From assembly GCA_014730235.1 (NCBI GenBank), contig WJIO01000335.1, positions 1 through 32,953 of the forward strand: DNA of 32,953 nt, given 5' to 3'. The notes under the pieces are model-generated. The model did no database searches and was not told the origin of the DNA. It worked only from the letters and a program-made list of their open reading frames with translations. Position numbers and translations under genes: made by a program. The DNA is from Candidatus Poribacteria bacterium (lineage in GTDB: Bacteria; Poribacteria; DTPJ01; WJIO01). Shown piece after piece: positions 178 through 7,334 of the stretch (its first letter is position 1; every line of letters begins with the position of its first letter).

Positions 178-1671
178 TTGAGTAATTCCAGAAAAATAGT
201 TTTTATCATGACAGACACCCAGGGAACCAACGTCGTCGGTTGTTATGGCAGACCTGAGCTAAATACGCCAAATATAGATAATTTAGCCGAACAAGGTATA
301 CGCTTTGACAGGGCCTATACTGCGTGTCCTGTCTGTGGGCCTGCCCGTTCTGCCATATTTACCGGCACATATCCTCACACCAACGGCAGTTGGGGTAATG
401 ATATGGATTTAGGGGCTAACATTAAAACAGTAGGTCAGCGGCTTCGGGATAATGGATTACAGACGGCTTACATTGGCAAATGGCATCTGGACGGAACGGA
501 CTACTTCGGCAGTGGTATTTGTCCTGACGGTTGGAAAGACGAATACTGGTTTGATATGCGCCGCTATCTTGAGGAGATGCCACCGGAAGATCGCAAACTG
601 TCCCGGGAACTTAACACACCGGAGAAGATACATAAACATAATATCGCAGAGGATTTTACCTACGGTCATAAATGTTCCAACAGGGCTATAGATTTTCTTT
701 CAAAATACGGCGACGATGACTTTATTCTGGTGGTTTCATACGATGAACCTCACGGGCCTTTTACATGTCCGCCTCCCTACTGCGATATGTTTCTGGACTA
801 CGAATACCCATTGGGCAAAAATGTAGCTGATACTATGGAAGATAAGCCTGCACACCAGCAGGAATGGGCCAGAGCCGCCAATCTACCCAAAGACAAAAAG
901 ACATTGAAAAGGGCCATGTATTTCGGCTGCAACAGCTTTGTTGACTACCAGATAGGCCGGGTGTTGAAAGCCGTTGATGAATACGCTTCCGATGCCCTGG
1001 TTATTTACACTTCTGATCATGGCACTCCCCTGTTATCTCATGGCTTGAACTCCAAGGGCCCGGCCATGTATGACGAGACCACTCGTGTTCCTTTTATTGT
1101 CCGCTGGCCTGGTTCATCACCGGAGAAGGCAGTTTGTTCCCACCCTGTATCCCATATAGACGTGGTGCCAACTATTCTTGATTTCATGGGCATGGATAGT
1201 GTGGACTATCTGGAAGGTAAAAGCATGCTGGAAACATTCCGCGATCCCGATAAACAGCCCAATGATAATATATTCATAGAATTCAACCGATACGAGATCG
1301 ATCACGATGGTTGGGGAGGATTTCAGCCTATACGCTGCGCCTTTGACGGCCGTCACAAGCTGGTGATCAACCTGCATTACACCGATGAGCTTTACGATCT
1401 GCAAAACGATCCGGAAGAGATGAAAAACCTCATCAATTCTCCGGAATATGCAGAGGTACGCGATAATTTACACCAGCAATTGCTGGAATGGATAAACCGC
1501 ACCAGGGATCCCTTCCGGGCGCCTGTTTGGGAACGTCGGCAGTGGAAAACAAATCCCAAACAACGCTGGGGTGGCCCAACAAGACCGAGACCCGATGATG
1601 GTTATTTACCGCGAGTTCTCCTTTATGAGACAGGTCTGGAAATAGAAAAATATACCTATGACAAAAATTAA
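178..1671 (+). CDS. Sulfatase, canonical formylglycine type
   Basis: A 497-aa enzyme of the alkaline-phosphatase superfamily that would hydrolyse sulfate esters, probably on sulfated glycans. The signature Cys-Gly-Pro-Ala-Arg is at residues 53-57, so Cys53 is the residue oxidised to formylglycine. Other active-site positions are in place: Asp13, Lys101 and His103 (GKWH), His192 (DEPHGP), Asp280-His281 (SDHG) and Lys293. The C-terminal region carries the usual YDLQNDPEEMKNL element. I see no signal peptide, so this copy looks cytoplasmic. The start is TTG, chosen because AGGAG lies 9 nt upstream (164-168). Its end overlaps the next gene by 14 nt, making it the first gene of a five-gene operon. 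The exact substrate cannot be read from sequence, and no sulfatase-maturing enzyme is encoded in the window. Confidence 0.93.
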   Translation: MSNSRKIVFIMTDTQGTNVVGCYGRPELNTPNIDNLAEQGIRFDRAYTACPVCGPARSAIFTGTYPHTNGSWGNDMDLGANIKTVGQRLRDNGLQTAYIGKWHLDGTDYFGSGICPDGWKDEYWFDMRRYLEEMPPEDRKLSRELNTPEKIHKHNIAEDFTYGHKCSNRAIDFLSKYGDDDFILVVSYDEPHGPFTCPPPYCDMFLDYEYPLGKNVADTMEDKPAHQQEWARAANLPKDKKTLKRAMYFGCNSFVDYQIGRVLKAVDEYASDALVIYTSDHGTPLLSHGLNSKGPAMYDETTRVPFIVRWPGSSPEKAVCSHPVSHIDVVPTILDFMGMDSVDYLEGKSMLETFRDPDKQPNDNIFIEFNRYEIDHDGWGGFQPIRCAFDGRHKLVINLHYTDELYDLQNDPEEMKNLINSPEYAEVRDNLHQQLLEWINRTRDPFRAPVWERRQWKTNPKQRWGGPTRPRPDDGYLPRVLLYETGLEIEKYTYDKN

Positions 1672-2359
1672 TAGAGAATTGGCTATAGTCCTGGTAAGCG
1701 GTGGCATGGATAGCTGTGTAACGGCTGCCATTGCCCATCAGTACTACGATCTGGCCTTTCTGCATGTAAGCTATGGCCAGAGAACCCAACAACGGGAGCT
1801 TAAAGCCTTTGACGATATAGCCGATTACTACAGCGTGGAAAAACGCCTGACAGCCAGCATAACATATTTAAAGGAAATTGGTGGATCAAGCCTGACAGAT
1901 GGACGAATAGCTGTATCTGAGTCATCCCCGGATGAAATCAATCCGGCTCAGGGAATTCCCACATCCTATGTACCTTTCAGAAATACCCATCTGTTGTCTA
2001 TTGCTGTTTCATGGGCAGAGATATCAGGAGCGGGAAAAATATTCATCGGCGCAGTAGAGGAAGATAGTTCCGGATATCCCGACTGTCGGGAGGAATATTA
2101 CCAGGCCTTTAACAACCTGGTGGAAATGGGAACAAAGCCGGAGACGAAAATCCAGATAATTACGCCGCTGATCCACATGAAAAAAAGCGAAATTGTGTTA
2201 AAGGGCATTGATTTAAAAGCCCCGCTTCATTTAACATGGTCGTGTTATAAAAATGCCAACAAAGCCTGTGGTGTATGTGATAGCTGTTTACTGCGCTTAA
2301 GAGGTTTTCGCGAAGCCGGCGTTGACGATCCCATTGAATACACAAGGTACAATTCATGA
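1658..2359 (+). CDS. queC: 7-cyano-7-deazaguanine synthase QueC
   Basis: A 233-aa enzyme converting 7-carboxy-7-deazaguanine to preQ0 with ATP and ammonia, the step supplying 7-deazaguanines for tRNA queuosine or for DNA modification. The PP-loop SGGMDS is at residues 14-19. The zinc site is four cysteines near the C terminus, Cys196, Cys204, Cys207 and Cys210, in the order expected for QueC. Length is normal for the family. There is no clear Shine-Dalgarno sequence, but the gene starts inside the upstream sulfatase, so it is probably translated by coupling. Its stop overlaps the start of the DNA methyltransferase gene (ATGA). No queD, queE, queF or tgt lies in the window, so the pathway it serves is not settled by context. 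Confidence 0.9.
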   Translation: MTKINRELAIVLVSGGMDSCVTAAIAHQYYDLAFLHVSYGQRTQQRELKAFDDIADYYSVEKRLTASITYLKEIGGSSLTDGRIAVSESSPDEINPAQGIPTSYVPFRNTHLLSIAVSWAEISGAGKIFIGAVEEDSSGYPDCREEYYQAFNNLVEMGTKPETKIQIITPLIHMKKSEIVLKGIDLKAPLHLTWSCYKNANKACGVCDSCLLRLRGFREAGVDDPIEYTRYNS

Positions 2360-3282
2360 GAGCCAAGAGAAATAGAACACTGACACTATCAGAGGATGAC
2401 AAAAAATATAAAGAGCGTTTATTGAAGTTAAACAAACCTGTATCAGTTGATTATATAACAAACAAGATTATAAATCAGGATGTTTTTAAAGCCCTTCAAC
2501 TTCTGCCCTCGAACTTTGTTGACCTGCTTTTTGTGGATCCACCCTATAACCTCACCAAAGTCTTTAACACCAGATCCTTCAGAGAAATGCCCGTTGATAA
2601 ATACATGGATTGGCTGGATTCATGGATTTCTCAAACAGTTCGTCTTTTAAAACCGACGGCATCGATCTATATCTGCGGAGATTGGCGATCGTCTTCCGCT
2701 ATACATCTTGTCTGTGAAAAGTACTTTAAAATAAAAAACCGGATCACCTTTGAGAGGGAAAAGGGCCGAGGTGCAAAGGCCAACTGGAAAAACAACTCAG
2801 AAGATATATGGTTCTGCACCATGTCCGACGATTATGTCTTTAACGTGGAATCGGTAAAGCTAAAAAAGAAGGTAATAGCACCTTACAGGAAAAAAGGAAA
2901 ACCCAAGGATTGGGTCGAGTCGCAAAAGGGGAATTTCAGGCTTACTCATCCATCCAACATCTGGACGGATATAACTATACCCTTCTGGTCCATGCCTGAA
3001 AACACACCACATCCCACCCAAAAACCAGAAAAACTACTGGCTAAAATTATCCTTGCCAGCAGTAATGAAAAAAATATTGTATTTGATCCCTTTGCCGGTG
3101 CCGGAACAACGGGGGTTGTAGCTAAAAAGCTTAACCGAAAATTTGTTATGATAGAAATTGACGAAGAATATTGCCTTTATGCAGTTAAAAGACTGCGTTT
3201 GGCAGATGATGAAACGGCCATCCAGGGATATGTTGATGGCGTTTTTTGGGAACGAAATATGCTAAAATCAATCAGGAGGTAA
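2356..3282 (+). CDS. Site-specific DNA methyltransferase, beta-class (N6-adenine or N4-cytosine)
   Basis: A 308-aa amino-methyltransferase acting on DNA. Catalytic motif IV, DPPY, is at residues 61-64 and precedes the SAM-binding motif, DPFAGAG at 244-250. That motif order, with the HPTQKPEKL segment before it (about 219-227), places it in the beta class. The stretch between is the probable target-recognition region. The gene overlaps queC by four bases (ATGA). No restriction endonuclease or specificity subunit is visible nearby, so it looks like a solitary methyltransferase, either regulatory or left over from a restriction system. The target sequence and the methylated base (adenine or cytosine) cannot be decided from sequence alone. 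Confidence 0.88.
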   Translation: MRAKRNRTLTLSEDDKKYKERLLKLNKPVSVDYITNKIINQDVFKALQLLPSNFVDLLFVDPPYNLTKVFNTRSFREMPVDKYMDWLDSWISQTVRLLKPTASIYICGDWRSSSAIHLVCEKYFKIKNRITFEREKGRGAKANWKNNSEDIWFCTMSDDYVFNVESVKLKKKVIAPYRKKGKPKDWVESQKGNFRLTHPSNIWTDITIPFWSMPENTPHPTQKPEKLLAKIILASSNEKNIVFDPFAGAGTTGVVAKKLNRKFVMIEIDEEYCLYAVKRLRLADDETAIQGYVDGVFWERNMLKSIRR

Positions 3283-3285
3283 ATA

Positions 3286-4284
3286 ATGTCTGATTTAGTA
3301 AGATTTGGAATTGTAGGTCTTGGTATGGGGGCGAATAGAGCCAATATCGCCGCAAATACAGAGGGCGCGAAGCTGGTCTGTGTGTGCGATATCCTTGAGG
3401 ATAAGGCCAAAAAGGTGTCAGAACAGCTTAAATGCGAATGGACTACCAATTATGAGGACATGCTGGACAGGGATGACATAGACGTGGTGGGCGTTATGAC
3501 ACCAAGTGGGATGCACGCTGACTTTGCCATGATGGCAGCGAAAGCCGGTAAGCATGTGTATACTACAAAACCTATGGACATACTGGTGGAAAAATGCGAT
3601 GAGCTAATAAAGACAGCCGAAGAAGCGGGAGTTATCCTGGCTGTAGACTTTGGCGAAAGATACGGCGTAGCAAACAAACGGGTCCGAAAAGCCATCCAAT
3701 CCGGTGCAATGGGGCGAATGATCCTGGCCGACCTGCGGATGAAATGGTTCAGGGATCAGGGATACTATGACGGCGGTTCACCGGTAGCATGGCGAAGCAA
3801 GCGCAGGTATGAAGGTGGTTCAGCCGCTAATCAGGGTGTGCATTTCCTGGACTTACTCCAATGGTTCATGGGCCCTGTAAAGACAGTATACGGCAAAAGC
3901 GGCACTTTCGCCCATGACATAGAGACAGAGGATTGCAGTATAGCCCTGGTGGAGTTCGCCAGCGGAACATGGGGGGTTATCCAGACAACCACATGCAGTA
4001 ACCCTAACCTGGGTAGCGCGCTGGAATTTACCGGAACAAAGGGGACATTGTCTTGGAAGGATTCAAAAGTGGTGCTATACAGCGTAGCCGATAACCCTGA
4101 TGCGTCCCTTGATGATATAGAAGTTGAACCAGGCCCGGCTAATATAATCGAGGACATGGTTTCAGCCGTCACCAAAGGCACTCCTGTTATAGTGGACGGA
4201 TATGAAGGCAAAAAATCTGTGGAAATCTTCTGCGCAATATACAAATCATCCAGAACAGGTAAACCAGTGGAACTGAACCAGTGA
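3286..4284 (+). CDS. Gfo/Idh/MocA family NAD(P)-dependent oxidoreductase
   Basis: A 332-aa two-domain dehydrogenase. The N-terminal Rossmann fold has the dinucleotide loop GLGMG (11-15) and an acidic residue ending beta-2 (VCDI). The catalytic domain has the NQGVHFLDLL helix with His186, the expected active-site histidine. The usual Glu-Lys-Pro motif is Thr-Lys-Pro here (94-96), keeping the lysine but losing the glutamate. Such enzymes oxidise or epimerise sugars, inositols and related polyols. An AGGAGGT ribosome site (3273-3279) sits within the end of the methyltransferase gene, 6 nt before the ATG. Placement between two sulfatase-type genes suggests a role in processing a desulfated sugar, which is inference. 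The substrate is unknown. Confidence 0.9.
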   Translation: MSDLVRFGIVGLGMGANRANIAANTEGAKLVCVCDILEDKAKKVSEQLKCEWTTNYEDMLDRDDIDVVGVMTPSGMHADFAMMAAKAGKHVYTTKPMDILVEKCDELIKTAEEAGVILAVDFGERYGVANKRVRKAIQSGAMGRMILADLRMKWFRDQGYYDGGSPVAWRSKRRYEGGSAANQGVHFLDLLQWFMGPVKTVYGKSGTFAHDIETEDCSIALVEFASGTWGVIQTTTCSNPNLGSALEFTGTKGTLSWKDSKVVLYSVADNPDASLDDIEVEPGPANIIEDMVSAVTKGTPVIVDGYEGKKSVEIFCAIYKSSRTGKPVELNQ

Positions 4285-4294
4285 GAGAAATACC

Positions 4295-5725
4295 ATGAAT
4301 TTAATATGTATATGTCTTGATACCTTTCGAGCCGATATTGTGGGCAATAATGGCAAAATGAGCTTTGTGAAAACGCCAAACCTTGACGCCCTGGCCAGAG
4401 ACAGCGTTTGCTTTGATCGAGCTTTTGGCGAAGGCCAGCCAACCCTTCAAATTCGCAGAGCCATGTTTACCGGGAGACGATCCTTCCCCTGGCGATATAA
4501 CTTCGACAGGCGCGGACACTGGCACCACGCTTCCGGCTGGCACAAAATACCACCGGAGCAAGATACAATTGCTGAAATGTTGTTGAGTCGTGGATACATG
4601 ACCTGCCTTGTGGCCGACACATACCATATGTTCAAGTCCACCATGAATTATGTCCGGGGATTTGCAGCTTATGATTTTATACGGGGGCAGGAGTCGGATA
4701 ACCTTCGTGCTGGGAATGGTAAACAGATAGAGGAAAATTTGAAACAGCATGTCCGGGAACCGGTAAACTGGCGTAGACATGGAACGCTTATCCAGTATTT
4801 GCTAAACATGCAGGATCGCAAATCGGAGGACGATTATCTATGCGCCAGGGTTTTCCAGAGTGCTTCCAGATACCTGGAGGATATGAAGGATTGCCAACCC
4901 TTTTTCATGTGGGTAGACAGCTTCGATCCTCATGAACCTTGGGATCCTCCCAAAGCCTATGCGGATAAATACTGCCCGGATTACTCAGGCAAGGATTTCA
5001 TAATGCCCGGTGCAGCCTATGAAGACGGTCAACCCGCTGATGAAGAAAAAGAGCGCATTAAAGCCTTGTATTTCGGTGAAGCAACCTTTGTGGACAAATG
5101 GGTTGGTCATCTACTCAACAAGATTGATGAACTTAAGTTATGGGATGACACTATTGTCATGCTGACATGCGATCACGGCACGCAGATCATGGATCATGGC
5201 AGTTTTGGCAAAGGAGCGAATAAACTGCATCCGTTTAACACCCGGATAATGTGGTATGTAAAGCATCCTGATGGGCCTAAGGATAAACACATAAATGGTT
5301 TTGTCCAGAGCCATGACATAGTTCCTACCATGATGTATCTGCTGGGACACGATTATATCTGCGACGGTATGAACGTATGGCCCCTGGTGACTGGTGAGAC
5401 TGATACTTTGCGGGATCACGTTGTCACAGGATGGGCTGGATGGAGTAACGGCCCGGCCCTGGGAAGAGCTTCTGTCCGGGACGATGAGTGGAATTACACC
5501 GTTGAGGTGGGCCAACCGGAGAAGAACCCTGAGTTATTTCATCTGCCTTCTGATCCAGATGAAAGGAACAACGTGATTAATCATCATCCTGATGTGGTTA
5601 CCAGGCAAAAAGATCGTCTGGAAGCTGTTTTAGGACATCCGCTTCCGGCTGTCCAGAACGAAGTTTGCGACAGCAATGCTCCACCTCCGGGTGTAAAATA
5701 TAGAGCCATGAAATATGATGTTTGA
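4295..5725 (+). CDS. Sulfatase-like hydrolase lacking the formylglycine Cys/Ser
   Basis: A 476-aa member of the sulfatase/alkaline-phosphatase superfamily. Metal-ligand positions are kept: Asp9 (LDTFRAD), His213 (DPHEPW), Asp293-His294 (CDHG) and Lys306. The active-site stretch PTLQIRRAMFTGR aligns with CGPARSAIFTG of the sulfatase at 178-1671. This puts Thr50 at the formylglycine position and Gln52 at the proline position, with Arg54 retained. The GKWH lysine is also missing (ADTYH around 107-111). It may therefore not be a true sulfatase. A Thr nucleophile is known in phosphate-handling members of this superfamily, so a phosphomono- or diesterase is possible. It starts 10 bases after the oxidoreductase gene with only a weak ribosome site and ends the operon. 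Confidence 0.85.
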   Translation: MNLICICLDTFRADIVGNNGKMSFVKTPNLDALARDSVCFDRAFGEGQPTLQIRRAMFTGRRSFPWRYNFDRRGHWHHASGWHKIPPEQDTIAEMLLSRGYMTCLVADTYHMFKSTMNYVRGFAAYDFIRGQESDNLRAGNGKQIEENLKQHVREPVNWRRHGTLIQYLLNMQDRKSEDDYLCARVFQSASRYLEDMKDCQPFFMWVDSFDPHEPWDPPKAYADKYCPDYSGKDFIMPGAAYEDGQPADEEKERIKALYFGEATFVDKWVGHLLNKIDELKLWDDTIVMLTCDHGTQIMDHGSFGKGANKLHPFNTRIMWYVKHPDGPKDKHINGFVQSHDIVPTMMYLLGHDYICDGMNVWPLVTGETDTLRDHVVTGWAGWSNGPALGRASVRDDEWNYTVEVGQPEKNPELFHLPSDPDERNNVINHHPDVVTRQKDRLEAVLGHPLPAVQNEVCDSNAPPPGVKYRAMKYDV

Positions 5726-5816: not shown

Positions 5817-7334
5817 TTGAACAACGCCGTTTATGATGCTCTAATAGAATTCCTGTATTCCGGTAAAATTCCCCGGGAATCTATTGAAGAATACGTTTTT
5901 ACGATACCCAATGATACATATCAACAGATTAAGCTTTTGAAGCAGTTGCAGCGGCGTCATGCCAGGTTGCAGGTGGCTAATTCTGCATACCGGGAGTCGC
6001 CAGGGATGCAGATGATAAGCCATATCAGGCGTATAATGTTGAGAAAACCCGATCCTGTTGATGAAATTCGGAAGCTAAGCGAACGAATTAATCAGCAACA
6101 AGCAGAACTTCGCAAAGTAATTTCAATGTCGGAGATGTCTGATAATGCCTTTTTTGAATACAGACCCTGTGGTGATGAATATATCCGTATACGTCCAGAT
6201 GCTCAAAAAGACATTATGGACTATTTCTTTCAGAAAGAACCAGAGACCAATCCAAAAGAAGCTGTAAACCGTTTTAATTCCATCATTAAGTTATTTCAGG
6301 ATTTTCCACCTGATATCCGGGTGCTGGGTTTTGCGGCTCTTCTCTGTTCCGCTGTAAAGGATTTTGACAACACAGAATTTCTGAAATGGGATAAACGCCT
6401 TCTTAACCTGATTTATGGGCCAAATATAGAAGCTACTCACCCGTTATCCCTTGACAGGTTTCTGGTGCATGCGGTTATATATGGAGCTCTTGATGGCGAA
6501 ATTGAGGACAGATACATTGCTTTTCGCATAGGATGGGATATGTTCCGGGATCAGTGGTCAAGGCATTTCAGCCATCCGGTAAGGGCTTTGTCCAGCGCGG
6601 CTTATTTGCTTCGTAGCGTGGAGCATTTTCCCAAAAGCGAAGGGGATTTCAGAGAGTTTTACCAGAGTAAAATGGAACGCTATGGCATGTTAATGCGAAG
6701 TATACACAACCGGGCTACTGCACCGGATGAGCAGTTGGGTCGAGGGATGAAAATCGGCGGTTCCGACTCATCTTCTGAATCTACCGAGATAAGCGGTGGC
6801 GGCGCTCCGGGGATGTTTGGCGGCGGCGGTATGGGCAAAAACGCCCGTATCGGTATCCCTGATCCTGTATTTGTTAGCGCAGCCCGACTTGTGGGTCTGC
6901 CAGCTACTATTGGTAATATATTCCAGCGTTTTGACGATCTGAGTATGGCAATGAAAAAACTCAACGATCCGTCCCAGGCGGCAGCTATTCTGGCCGATAC
7001 CCCGATTTTTCCCGTAGATCGTCGGGATAGCAGAGATTCTTTCAGAGCCGAAGAACCCAGCGATTTTGCCATGAAACTCCAGGAGAGAACCCGATTGGCA
7101 TCTCAGATGGGAGCACATCTAACATTAAAGACGGTTCACGGAGCAGTTATAGCACTTCATCCCGGCCCTGTGGAAAATTCTATACAGATATTTGAAGAAC
7201 TCTGGACTCAATTGCCGGAAATTCCTGAGACATCCCGCAGGCTTGCGACTTTTCTGCTTATGGATGCATCTATGCCATTTGTAAGGGATCAGCGTTTTGC
7301 TTATGATTTGTGGTTTTCTGAGGGTGTGGGATAA
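5817..7334 (+). CDS. Protein of unknown function, 505 aa
   Basis: I do not recognise this protein. It has no signal peptide or membrane segment and is probably cytoplasmic. Residues 35-105 are helical and charged, with a Gln/Arg/Glu-rich stretch that could form a coiled coil. Residues 145-300 look all-helical. A Gly/Ser-rich linker (about 314-340, with runs such as GGGAPGMFGGGGMGK) separates them from a C-terminal helical domain of about 165 residues. The start is TTG, chosen because AAGG (5804-5807) lies at suitable spacing; no in-frame ATG offers a better site. It follows the terminator of the sulfatase operon and is convergent with the next gene, with only 9 bases between stops. It appears to be a single-gene unit. 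Confidence 0.75.
   Translation: MNNAVYDALIEFLYSGKIPRESIEEYVFTIPNDTYQQIKLLKQLQRRHARLQVANSAYRESPGMQMISHIRRIMLRKPDPVDEIRKLSERINQQQAELRKVISMSEMSDNAFFEYRPCGDEYIRIRPDAQKDIMDYFFQKEPETNPKEAVNRFNSIIKLFQDFPPDIRVLGFAALLCSAVKDFDNTEFLKWDKRLLNLIYGPNIEATHPLSLDRFLVHAVIYGALDGEIEDRYIAFRIGWDMFRDQWSRHFSHPVRALSSAAYLLRSVEHFPKSEGDFREFYQSKMERYGMLMRSIHNRATAPDEQLGRGMKIGGSDSSSESTEISGGGAPGMFGGGGMGKNARIGIPDPVFVSAARLVGLPATIGNIFQRFDDLSMAMKKLNDPSQAAAILADTPIFPVDRRDSRDSFRAEEPSDFAMKLQERTRLASQMGAHLTLKTVHGAVIALHPGPVENSIQIFEELWTQLPEIPETSRRLATFLLMDASMPFVRDQRFAYDLWFSEGVG

Follow-up and report, generated by a model that had tools for sequence, protein, structure and literature searches.

Sulfatases work because of formylglycine (FGly), and how the alkaline phosphatase superfamily has passed between FGly and plain hydroxyl nucleophiles is an open question. 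A gene on contig WJIO01000335.1 of Candidatus Poribacteria, analyzed here within the whole 32,953-nucleotide (nt) stretch that we call the window, brings this question down to a single protein: its product resembles a sulfatase, yet it carries threonine at the position from which FGly is made. Is this protein an active enzyme, and if so, how would it work and on which substrate?

The open reading frame (ORF) starts with ATG, and its 476-amino-acid (aa) product matches the Pfam Sulfatase profile PF00884 over residues 2 to 351 (E value 2.2e-31; 109.8 bits against a cut-off of 25). By BLASTP, it shares 23% identity (E value 7e-20) with the canonical sulfatase encoded further upstream, which retains C-G-P-A-R and GKWH. 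Since this alignment runs through the active-site segment without gaps and pairs Thr50 with Cys, Gln52 with Pro, and Arg54 with Arg, it confirms the proposal of a first-pass annotation that Thr50 stands at the Cys/Ser position and Gln52 at the Pro position. The FGly sulfatase signature, given as (C/S)-x-(P/A)-x-R in PMC5066984, is absent from the protein, which has T-L-Q-I-R instead. The Gly-Lys-x-His motif that provides Lys-A and His-A is likewise missing: GKWH has become DTYH, with His111 kept and the lysine gone. The features discussed below are collected in Table 1.

Table 1. Features of the Thr-type gene and of genes in its directon, by position in the 32,953-nt window
Feature	Position	Strand	Evidence
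Putative Thr-nucleophile sulfatase-like hydrolase, 476 aa	4295..5725	+	ORF; PF00884; model pLDDT 89.4; structural neighbors
Codon of Asp9, which by homology (D20 of EfAS) is the first metal ligand	4319..4321	+	Alignments; EfAS ligand role from PMC12421950
T50-L-Q-I-R54 in place of C-x-P-x-R; Thr50 at the nucleophile position, Arg54 kept	4442..4456	+	Alignment; homologue loci
D108-T109-Y110-H111, where the canonical motif is G-K-W-H; Cys-type sisters have His at 109	4616..4627	+	Alignments
FDPHEPW, residues 210-216, family hallmark including His213	4922..4942	+	Alignment; motif search
D293-H294-G295, metal ligands by homology (D-H as in PMH, EfAS, and ENPP)	5171..5179	+	Alignments; roles from PMC12421950 and PMC11677397
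Lys306, active-site lysine kept (K324 of EfAS)	5210..5212	+	Alignments
Canonical sulfatase with Cys (FGly type) in the same directon, used for comparison	178..1671	+	Motif; Pfam
Gfo/Idh/MocA oxidoreductase gene ending 10 nt before the Thr gene; a possible partner in the same transcript	3286..4284	+	ORF list; Pfam

The Thr-bearing protein is a member of a large and widespread family rather than a lone oddity. Its own genome holds 45 matches to it, nine of which (counting the protein itself) form one group marked by P-T-x-(P/Q)-x-R, by D-x-x-H in place of GKWH, and by FDPHEPW; the exceptions are D-T-Q-N in L008 and FAPHESW in L006. PF00884 has 53 matches in this genome, and among the 39 distinct sulfatase-domain proteins readable at a length of at least 350 aa, 28 carry Cys and 11 carry Thr, the latter being the nine plus L013 and L133. 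L013 has the active site S-T-T-G-A-R and falls among Cys sulfatases in an earlier tree built without the Cys-type sisters described below, possibly reflecting a separate loss of Cys. L133 (528-1950 in the reverse-strand coordinates of its locus) is a second, different Thr-type PF00884 protein with I-P-T-Q-P-C-Y and no Arg; it stood beside the Thr group in that earlier tree and with other rows in a later one, and L331 of another genome is similar.

Outside the genome, orthologues of at least 59% identity were found in 31 of the 38 other genomes searched. Thr50 is present in 29/29 orthologue loci from the phylum, in 8/8 paralogues, and in 55/55 relatives from a genome collection. The records of these 55, which are metagenome bins cited under their deposited names, read Poribacteria, Latescibacterota, Planctomycetota, Armatimonadota, Zipacnadia, Gemmatimonadota, Bacillota, Spirochaetes, Bathyarchaeota, and, once, "uncultured bacterium." Searching viral contigs with six peptide patterns taken from this one protein, a weak test, gave no match.

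At the DNA level, the FDPHEPW pattern occurs in 57 of the 58 phylum genomes, usually in three to four copies, against 0 for a reversed-pattern control. It was also found at 73 places in all 15 genomes reached via orthologue loci (one of them a Poribacteria record, and all picked for holding an orthologue, so that presence was expected and copy number was not) and in 16 of 61 genomes from the phylum of the Bathyarchaeota-named bin. We read 133 of these loci, namely 60 places from the 58-genome search and all 73 from the orthologue genomes. Both Thr50 and Arg54 are present in 130/130 readable loci, the other three being masked, frame-broken, or at a contig edge at residue 50. D293 and H294 are found in 133/133, K306 in 130/133, and D9 in 128 of 129 readable loci; D211, H213, E214, and W216 are fixed in this set by the choice of FDPHEPW. 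The Thr codons of 181 distinct sequences are ACG (81), ACA (47), ACC (33), and ACT (20), a count drawn only from Thr-motif matches that shows codon turnover and not the absence of other residues. We rule out a sequencing or frame error as the origin of the Thr, since it is present in all 130 readable independent loci and all four codons are used.

This conservation also bears on whether the protein is a pseudoenzyme that binds ligands through its old active site. The loss of both the Cys and the GKWH lysine could be taken that way. However, even at about 30% identity and across several phyla, Thr50, D293, and H294 never vary and D9 hardly does; ligand residues are usually the ones lost in pseudoenzymes, and here nine members have been retained in one genome. 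We regard a pseudoenzyme as decidedly improbable.

The retained residues outline an active site. A profile alignment to the Enterococcus faecium arylsulfatase EfAS pairs D9, T50, R54, H213, D293, H294, and K306 with D20, C61, R65, H220, D311, H312, and K324 (EfAS numbering mapped via a constant offset of 4 from the chain sequence), residues that were probed by mutation in EfAS (PMC12421950). Asp9, Asp293, and His294, named as surviving metal ligands in the first-pass annotation, are all in place. With Thr50, they correspond to the nucleophile and the D, D, and H ligands described for ENPP (PMC11677397). The same three ligands are found in phosphonate monoester hydrolases (PMHs) and "new" arylsulfatases (ArPMH, RlPMH, and EfAS), which differ in carrying the FGly Cys, so that the PMH metal set of Asp, FGly-Cys, Asp, and His is present here with Thr for the Cys. 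RlPMH has Tyr and Thr at the arylsulfatase Lys-A and His-A places (PMC5488252), whereas the Thr protein keeps His111.

An AlphaFold2 model built on an alignment of 25 family members (mean pLDDT 89.4, pTM 0.91) agrees with this assignment. A predicted helix spanning residues 50-59 starts at Thr50, and a helix end is the seat of the superfamily nucleophile (PMC11677397). Together with the gapless alignment, this start rules out another Cys or Ser in the nucleophile place. Foldseek ranked EfAS (9koq) and a phosphonate monoester hydrolase first, with ArPMH (4uph) and RlPMH (2vqr) among the top matches. VIA-align gave a Z score of 34.7 to the ulvan S1_7 sulfatase 6hhm over 407 residues (rmsd 3.2), which places the model in the sulfatase alpha/beta fold. 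S1 sulfatases and PMHs cover nearly its whole length at Z scores of about 30-35; YejM, PMHs, and choline sulfatase score about 31, the YejM match spanning fewer residues. Carbohydrate sulfatases are the best structural matches of the model. The protein shares with the FGly sulfatases of SulfAtlas S1 (FA22070 S1_7 and PsS1_NC) a fold matched over nearly the whole length (Z 32-35), the Asp/Asp metal pocket, the Arg of CxPxR, the histidine of PH, and the active-site lysine. It differs from them in having Thr for Cys/Ser, no Gly-Lys before x-His, and the FDPHEPW motif, and FGly would not be expected to form in it.

Thr nucleophiles are found elsewhere in the superfamily. ENPP enzymes use Thr, and their site-1 metal ligands are two Asp, one His, and the nucleophile (PMC11677397), while the Zn1 ligands of MCR-1 are Glu, Thr, Asp, and His (PMC5175174). 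The D/T/D/H set of the Thr protein is identical to the first and close to the second, which supports its assignment as a Thr metallo-hydrolase. ENPP differs in its two-zinc site, and no equivalents of the second metal site (Asp, His, His) were noted in the 476-aa sequence, with ENPP sequences lying outside the alignment. The ENPP profile PF01663 scores 26.8 bits against a cut-off of 23 and matches residues 251-299 only.

LtaS, EptA, MCR-1, and YejM share the superfamily fold and the Thr nucleophile, and their similar ligand set (PMC5175174, PMC7576196), along with the place of YejM among the VIA-align matches, raises the prospect of an LtaS/EptA-like transferase that would pass a phospho-group via phospho-Thr to an acceptor. 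These enzymes are membrane-anchored, however, and the first ligand is Glu in LtaS and MCR-1 (PMC5175174, PMC7576196). Our ORF begins at the first core strand (residues 2-8 of the model), leaving no room for a signal peptide, and an N-terminal membrane domain of the LtaS/EptA/YejM type is absent. Matches to the choline sulfatase, PMH (PehA), and arylsulfatase profiles are also far stronger than those to the LtaS or YejM profiles. A transferase thus seems quite unlikely.

Taken together, the alignments, the model, and the analogy to characterized enzymes favor an active, cytoplasmic metallo-hydrolase of the alkaline phosphatase superfamily that uses Thr50 as its direct nucleophile, needs no FGly, and likely acts on a phosphoester of a sugar-type small molecule, a reading to which we assign a probability of roughly 57%. 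In the proposed mechanism, one divalent metal would be held by Asp9, Asp293, His294, and Thr50, and the substrate anion by Arg54, His213, and Lys306. The Thr50 hydroxyl would attack directly, making FGly maturation unnecessary, and the covalent Thr ester would be released by water rather than by the FGly hemiacetal route of true sulfatases. The substrate would likely be a small, sugar-type molecule carrying a phosphate (di)ester or a phospho-ester of another kind. Here, we infer catalysis, the metal and the number of metals, and the phosphoester substrate. A repurposed Thr-nucleophile hydrolase of phosphoesterase type, one of the options raised in the first-pass annotation, therefore stands as the best reading, given the conserved Thr50 and the largely intact active site.

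The phosphoester is favored because known Thr enzymes of the superfamily (ENPP, LtaS, and EptA) act on phosphoesters and because a sulfo-Thr ester would lack the FGly release step. YejM has a Mg-dependent phosphatase activity that drops by about 70% in the T302A variant (PMC7576196). Replacing the FGly Cys with Ser in nine sulfatases and PMHs cost about tenfold on average over the ester types tested (PMC5488252); that these mutants keep about a tenth of their activity indicates that a hydroxyl nucleophile works in this fold, and also that the nucleophile alone leaves the substrate unsettled. Indeed, the protein retains His213 and Lys306, which belong to the sulfatase anion site, and sulfate esters could therefore still be substrates.

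Some members of the same family carry Cys. A protein search of a plasmid collection returned 502 records with a match, which led to a Thr member on a plasmid of Martelella mediterranea DSM 17316. It also led, in haloarchaea, Rhizobium, and Deinococcus, to Cys members that read P-C-M-P-A-R or P-C-A-P-A-R and in which most other family marks are kept. Further Cys members came from other phyla and plasmids. The larger family set was defined by D108, R54, E214, and H294, which are accordingly no evidence within it; 262 of 304 proteins carried these residues and, minus 25 repeats that had been reached by a second route, gave 237 distinct sequences. The 42 excluded proteins comprise 30 canonical or other proteins of the own genome and repeats, and 12 others (fragments, masked or frame-broken loci, three canonical or odd plasmid sulfatases, L331, and the Thr proteins L354, L378, L091, and L103, each one criterion short). 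Thr is found in 208 of the 237, Cys in 28, and Ser in one (L369). This only Ser member, from a bin named Armatimonadota, reads Y-P-S-L-P-H-R and is without His at 109 and 111.

The Cys-type sisters (P-C-M-P-A-R, D-H-x-H, and mostly HEPF; from Rhizobium, roseobacter, and haloarchaeal plasmids and some bins) share D108, H111, H213, E214, D293, H294, and K306 with the Thr protein and fall with it in one 100/100 clade. They differ in the Cys nucleophile, His109, Ala53, and, mostly, Phe216. More distant sisters within the family thus carry the C/S-x-P-x-R type of motif that we looked for, and did not find, in the orthologues. The sisters also lack the GKWH lysine; the loss that the first-pass annotation listed beside Thr50 is real, but it is ruled out as a sign of Thr chemistry.

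What does separate the two types most cleanly is residue 109, defined only as the residue two before His111. Aligners gap this residue and pair D108 with the GKWH lysine, while counting back from His111 pairs 109 with it instead. Residue 109 is His in 28/28 Cys members; the 208 Thr members show T, V, C, N, L, or A there, apart from one that has a gap and three that have His, each together with Gln at 111. H-x-H is consequently present in 28/28 Cys and 0/208 Thr members, and in 10/10 Cys against 0/51 Thr sequences among 61 representatives at a 50% identity cut. Sites 53, 216, and 237 also differ between Cys and Thr members, so 109 is not the sole one. Pro52 of the FGE motif is kept in 10/10 Cys and 44/51 Thr representatives, Gln52 being a mark of the orthologue group and a few others, and His111 (His-A) in 10/10 and 38/51. 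His-A of FGly enzymes has been proposed as a helper base in hemiacetal breakdown (PMC5488252), and its relaxation with that of Pro52 fits direct Thr catalysis, in which Thr would form no hemiacetal and need no FGE; the two sites could alternatively have relaxed by drift.

The family tree, built from 62 family representatives and 10 canonical Cys sulfatases of the own genome with the motif columns removed, separates the family from the canonical rows at 100/100; our protein, with D108, R54, E214, and H294, lies within it. Ten Cys rows group at 100/99 with two Thr rows, L287 and L383, and this group is nested in a larger clade (98/95) made up mostly of Thr rows. The partner of L287 is the Cys row L310 (99/95), and L383 sits among Cys rows (99/90). 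A single Thr clade is rejected (AU p 1.8e-38, with the lone Ser row counted among the others), as is a single Cys clade (AU p 0.0018), both values being optimistic since the groups were named after a first tree. The single Thr branch (100/98) of the earlier tree without Cys sisters was incomplete and is superseded. The tree needs at least five changes of nucleophile state, with the outgroup and the Ser row counted.

The catalytic residue of this family thus appears, from sequence comparison, to have switched between Thr and Cys more than once. An evenly balanced proposal goes further: the family may have switched several times between an unmodified Thr and an FGly-competent Cys, with a canonical root implying a Thr ancestor, a Cys group that would have regained FGly chemistry, and two lineages that would have returned to Thr, while residue 109, His with Cys only, toggles along. 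Across three independent Thr/Cys contrasts, H-x-H goes with Cys in 3/3 (sign test p 0.25, too few for significance). The direction of change depends on the root, and Thr may instead be an older superfamily state kept in the family; the trees cover the family and canonical sulfatases.

Genomic context was compared at 55 Thr loci. The gene closes a five-gene directon (178-5725; junctions of -14, -4, +3, and +10 nt) of mixed functions that include queC, a DNA methylase, and the Gfo/Idh gene. Only the Thr gene itself recurs at the 55 loci, and none of the other directon genes fell in any neighbor cluster (30% identity, E value 1e-15), which rules out a conserved operon with the sulfatase. The functional pairing of the two enzymes suggested in the first-pass annotation finds no support in this unconserved arrangement. 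A different Gfo/Idh gene lies just upstream of the Thr orthologue at the L087 locus. Within the directon, the stop of the sulfatase gene lies inside queC, whose end shares 4 nt with the N6/N4 DNA methylase gene that comes next (1658-3282 for the two), an odd pairing in such a setting. A 505-aa ORF (5817-7334) located 91 nt downstream of the Thr gene has no Pfam or NCBIfam match at an E value of 0.001.

Neighbors of the Thr loci say little about a sugar substrate. Glycan genes occur at single loci (heparinase II/III, fucosidase, GH31, BNR, and another sulfatase), and the largest Poribacteria neighbor clusters are housekeeping-like (OMP decarboxylase family, argininosuccinate lyase family, ThuA, PhyH, amidohydrolase, and malate synthase), offering no clue to a sugar substrate and speaking mildly against one. 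The Thr-type Martelella plasmid locus has transposases and metal genes and no sugar genes. A DUF6785 (PF20581) membrane protein, encoded directly upstream of one own paralogue (L005) and upstream of some Latescibacterota orthologues, was dropped as a candidate partner: the family has 41 matches in the own genome, so that adjacency may be chance, and none in 14 well-known control genomes.

At the annotated Cys-type plasmid loci, by comparison, sugar ABC transporter genes adjoin 8 of 18 (Haladaptatus salinisoli, two Rhizobium, two Roseibium, Paracoccus, Martelella NC18, and Roseateles). The other 10 have no sugar-annotated ABC importer within the stretch viewed; among these 10 are loci with transporters of other kinds, with a PTS gene (Serratia), or with genes for glycosidases or sugar metabolism. 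The link to sugars is therefore fair for Cys-type members and weak for Thr-type ones. At three haloarchaeal plasmid loci (L307, L347, and L396), the Cys-type sulfatase gene has its start overlapped or directly adjoined by a small ORF annotated as DUF1450, an arrangement that hints at translational coupling.

Maturation genes lie by 2 of the 18 annotated Cys-type loci, an FGE near the Streptomyces member and an anaerobic maturase near the Serratia member. Comparison with the FGE loci of the own genome found no FGE-like ORF near the 55 Thr loci, whose flanks are often cut by contig ends; its three matches all fell in flanking sequence outside the FGE part. With 10 FGE-family matches in the own genome, one might imagine that a maturase oxidizes Thr50 to a ketone-bearing residue acting as an FGly mimic. 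Oxidation of Thr would indeed yield a ketone, but according to PMC5066984, FGly from Thr has never been shown, and 7 of 51 Thr representatives, including the protein studied here, have lost the Pro of the FGE motif. We consider such a mimic very improbable indeed.

The Cys-type sisters are probably sulfatases, so the chemistry of the substrate may differ less between the two types than the nucleophile implies. Could the Thr protein then be an FGly-free sulfatase, in which Thr50 attacks sulfate esters of imported sugars and the sulfo-Thr is then hydrolyzed? The best structural matches, the retained anion residues R54, H213, and K306, the sugar transporters beside Cys-type loci, and one Cys-type locus near a sulfatase maturase and a TauE/SafE-type exporter gene would all suit it. 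Against it, a sulfo-Thr ester lacks the escape route that FGly provides, and we know of no characterized sulfatase of this family with an unmodified Thr. An FGly-free sulfatase seems unlikely to us, and the SulfAtlas authors withhold sulfatase status from the Thr proteins in their paper unless there is experiment (PMC5066984).

Thr in PF00884 proteins is in itself already known: it is reported for 30 of 59 seed sequences, with TxNxE proteins given as an example (PMC5066984). The same source records SulfAtlas S1 sulfatases with Ser for Gly112 and Asp for Lys113, 87 sequences each (PMC5066984), and these may be the Cys-type sisters. In the open-license literature searched on the topic, we met no account of a family in which T-x-P-x-R and Cys members are interleaved.

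Counts of "sulfatases" in sponge-symbiont and related genomes should accordingly be read with caution, as they include Thr proteins (11 of 39 in the genome studied here). Because Cys and Thr members have most of the active site in common, with the nucleophile and residue 109 as the cleanest difference, the change is testable by a two-residue swap in natural backgrounds, and both types are on record from cultured organisms: the Cys type in Rhizobium, Paracoccus, and haloarchaea and the Thr type in Martelella mediterranea DSM 17316. If the switching that we propose is true, this family would offer, on a single scaffold, naturally occurring conversions from Thr to FGly and from FGly to Thr.
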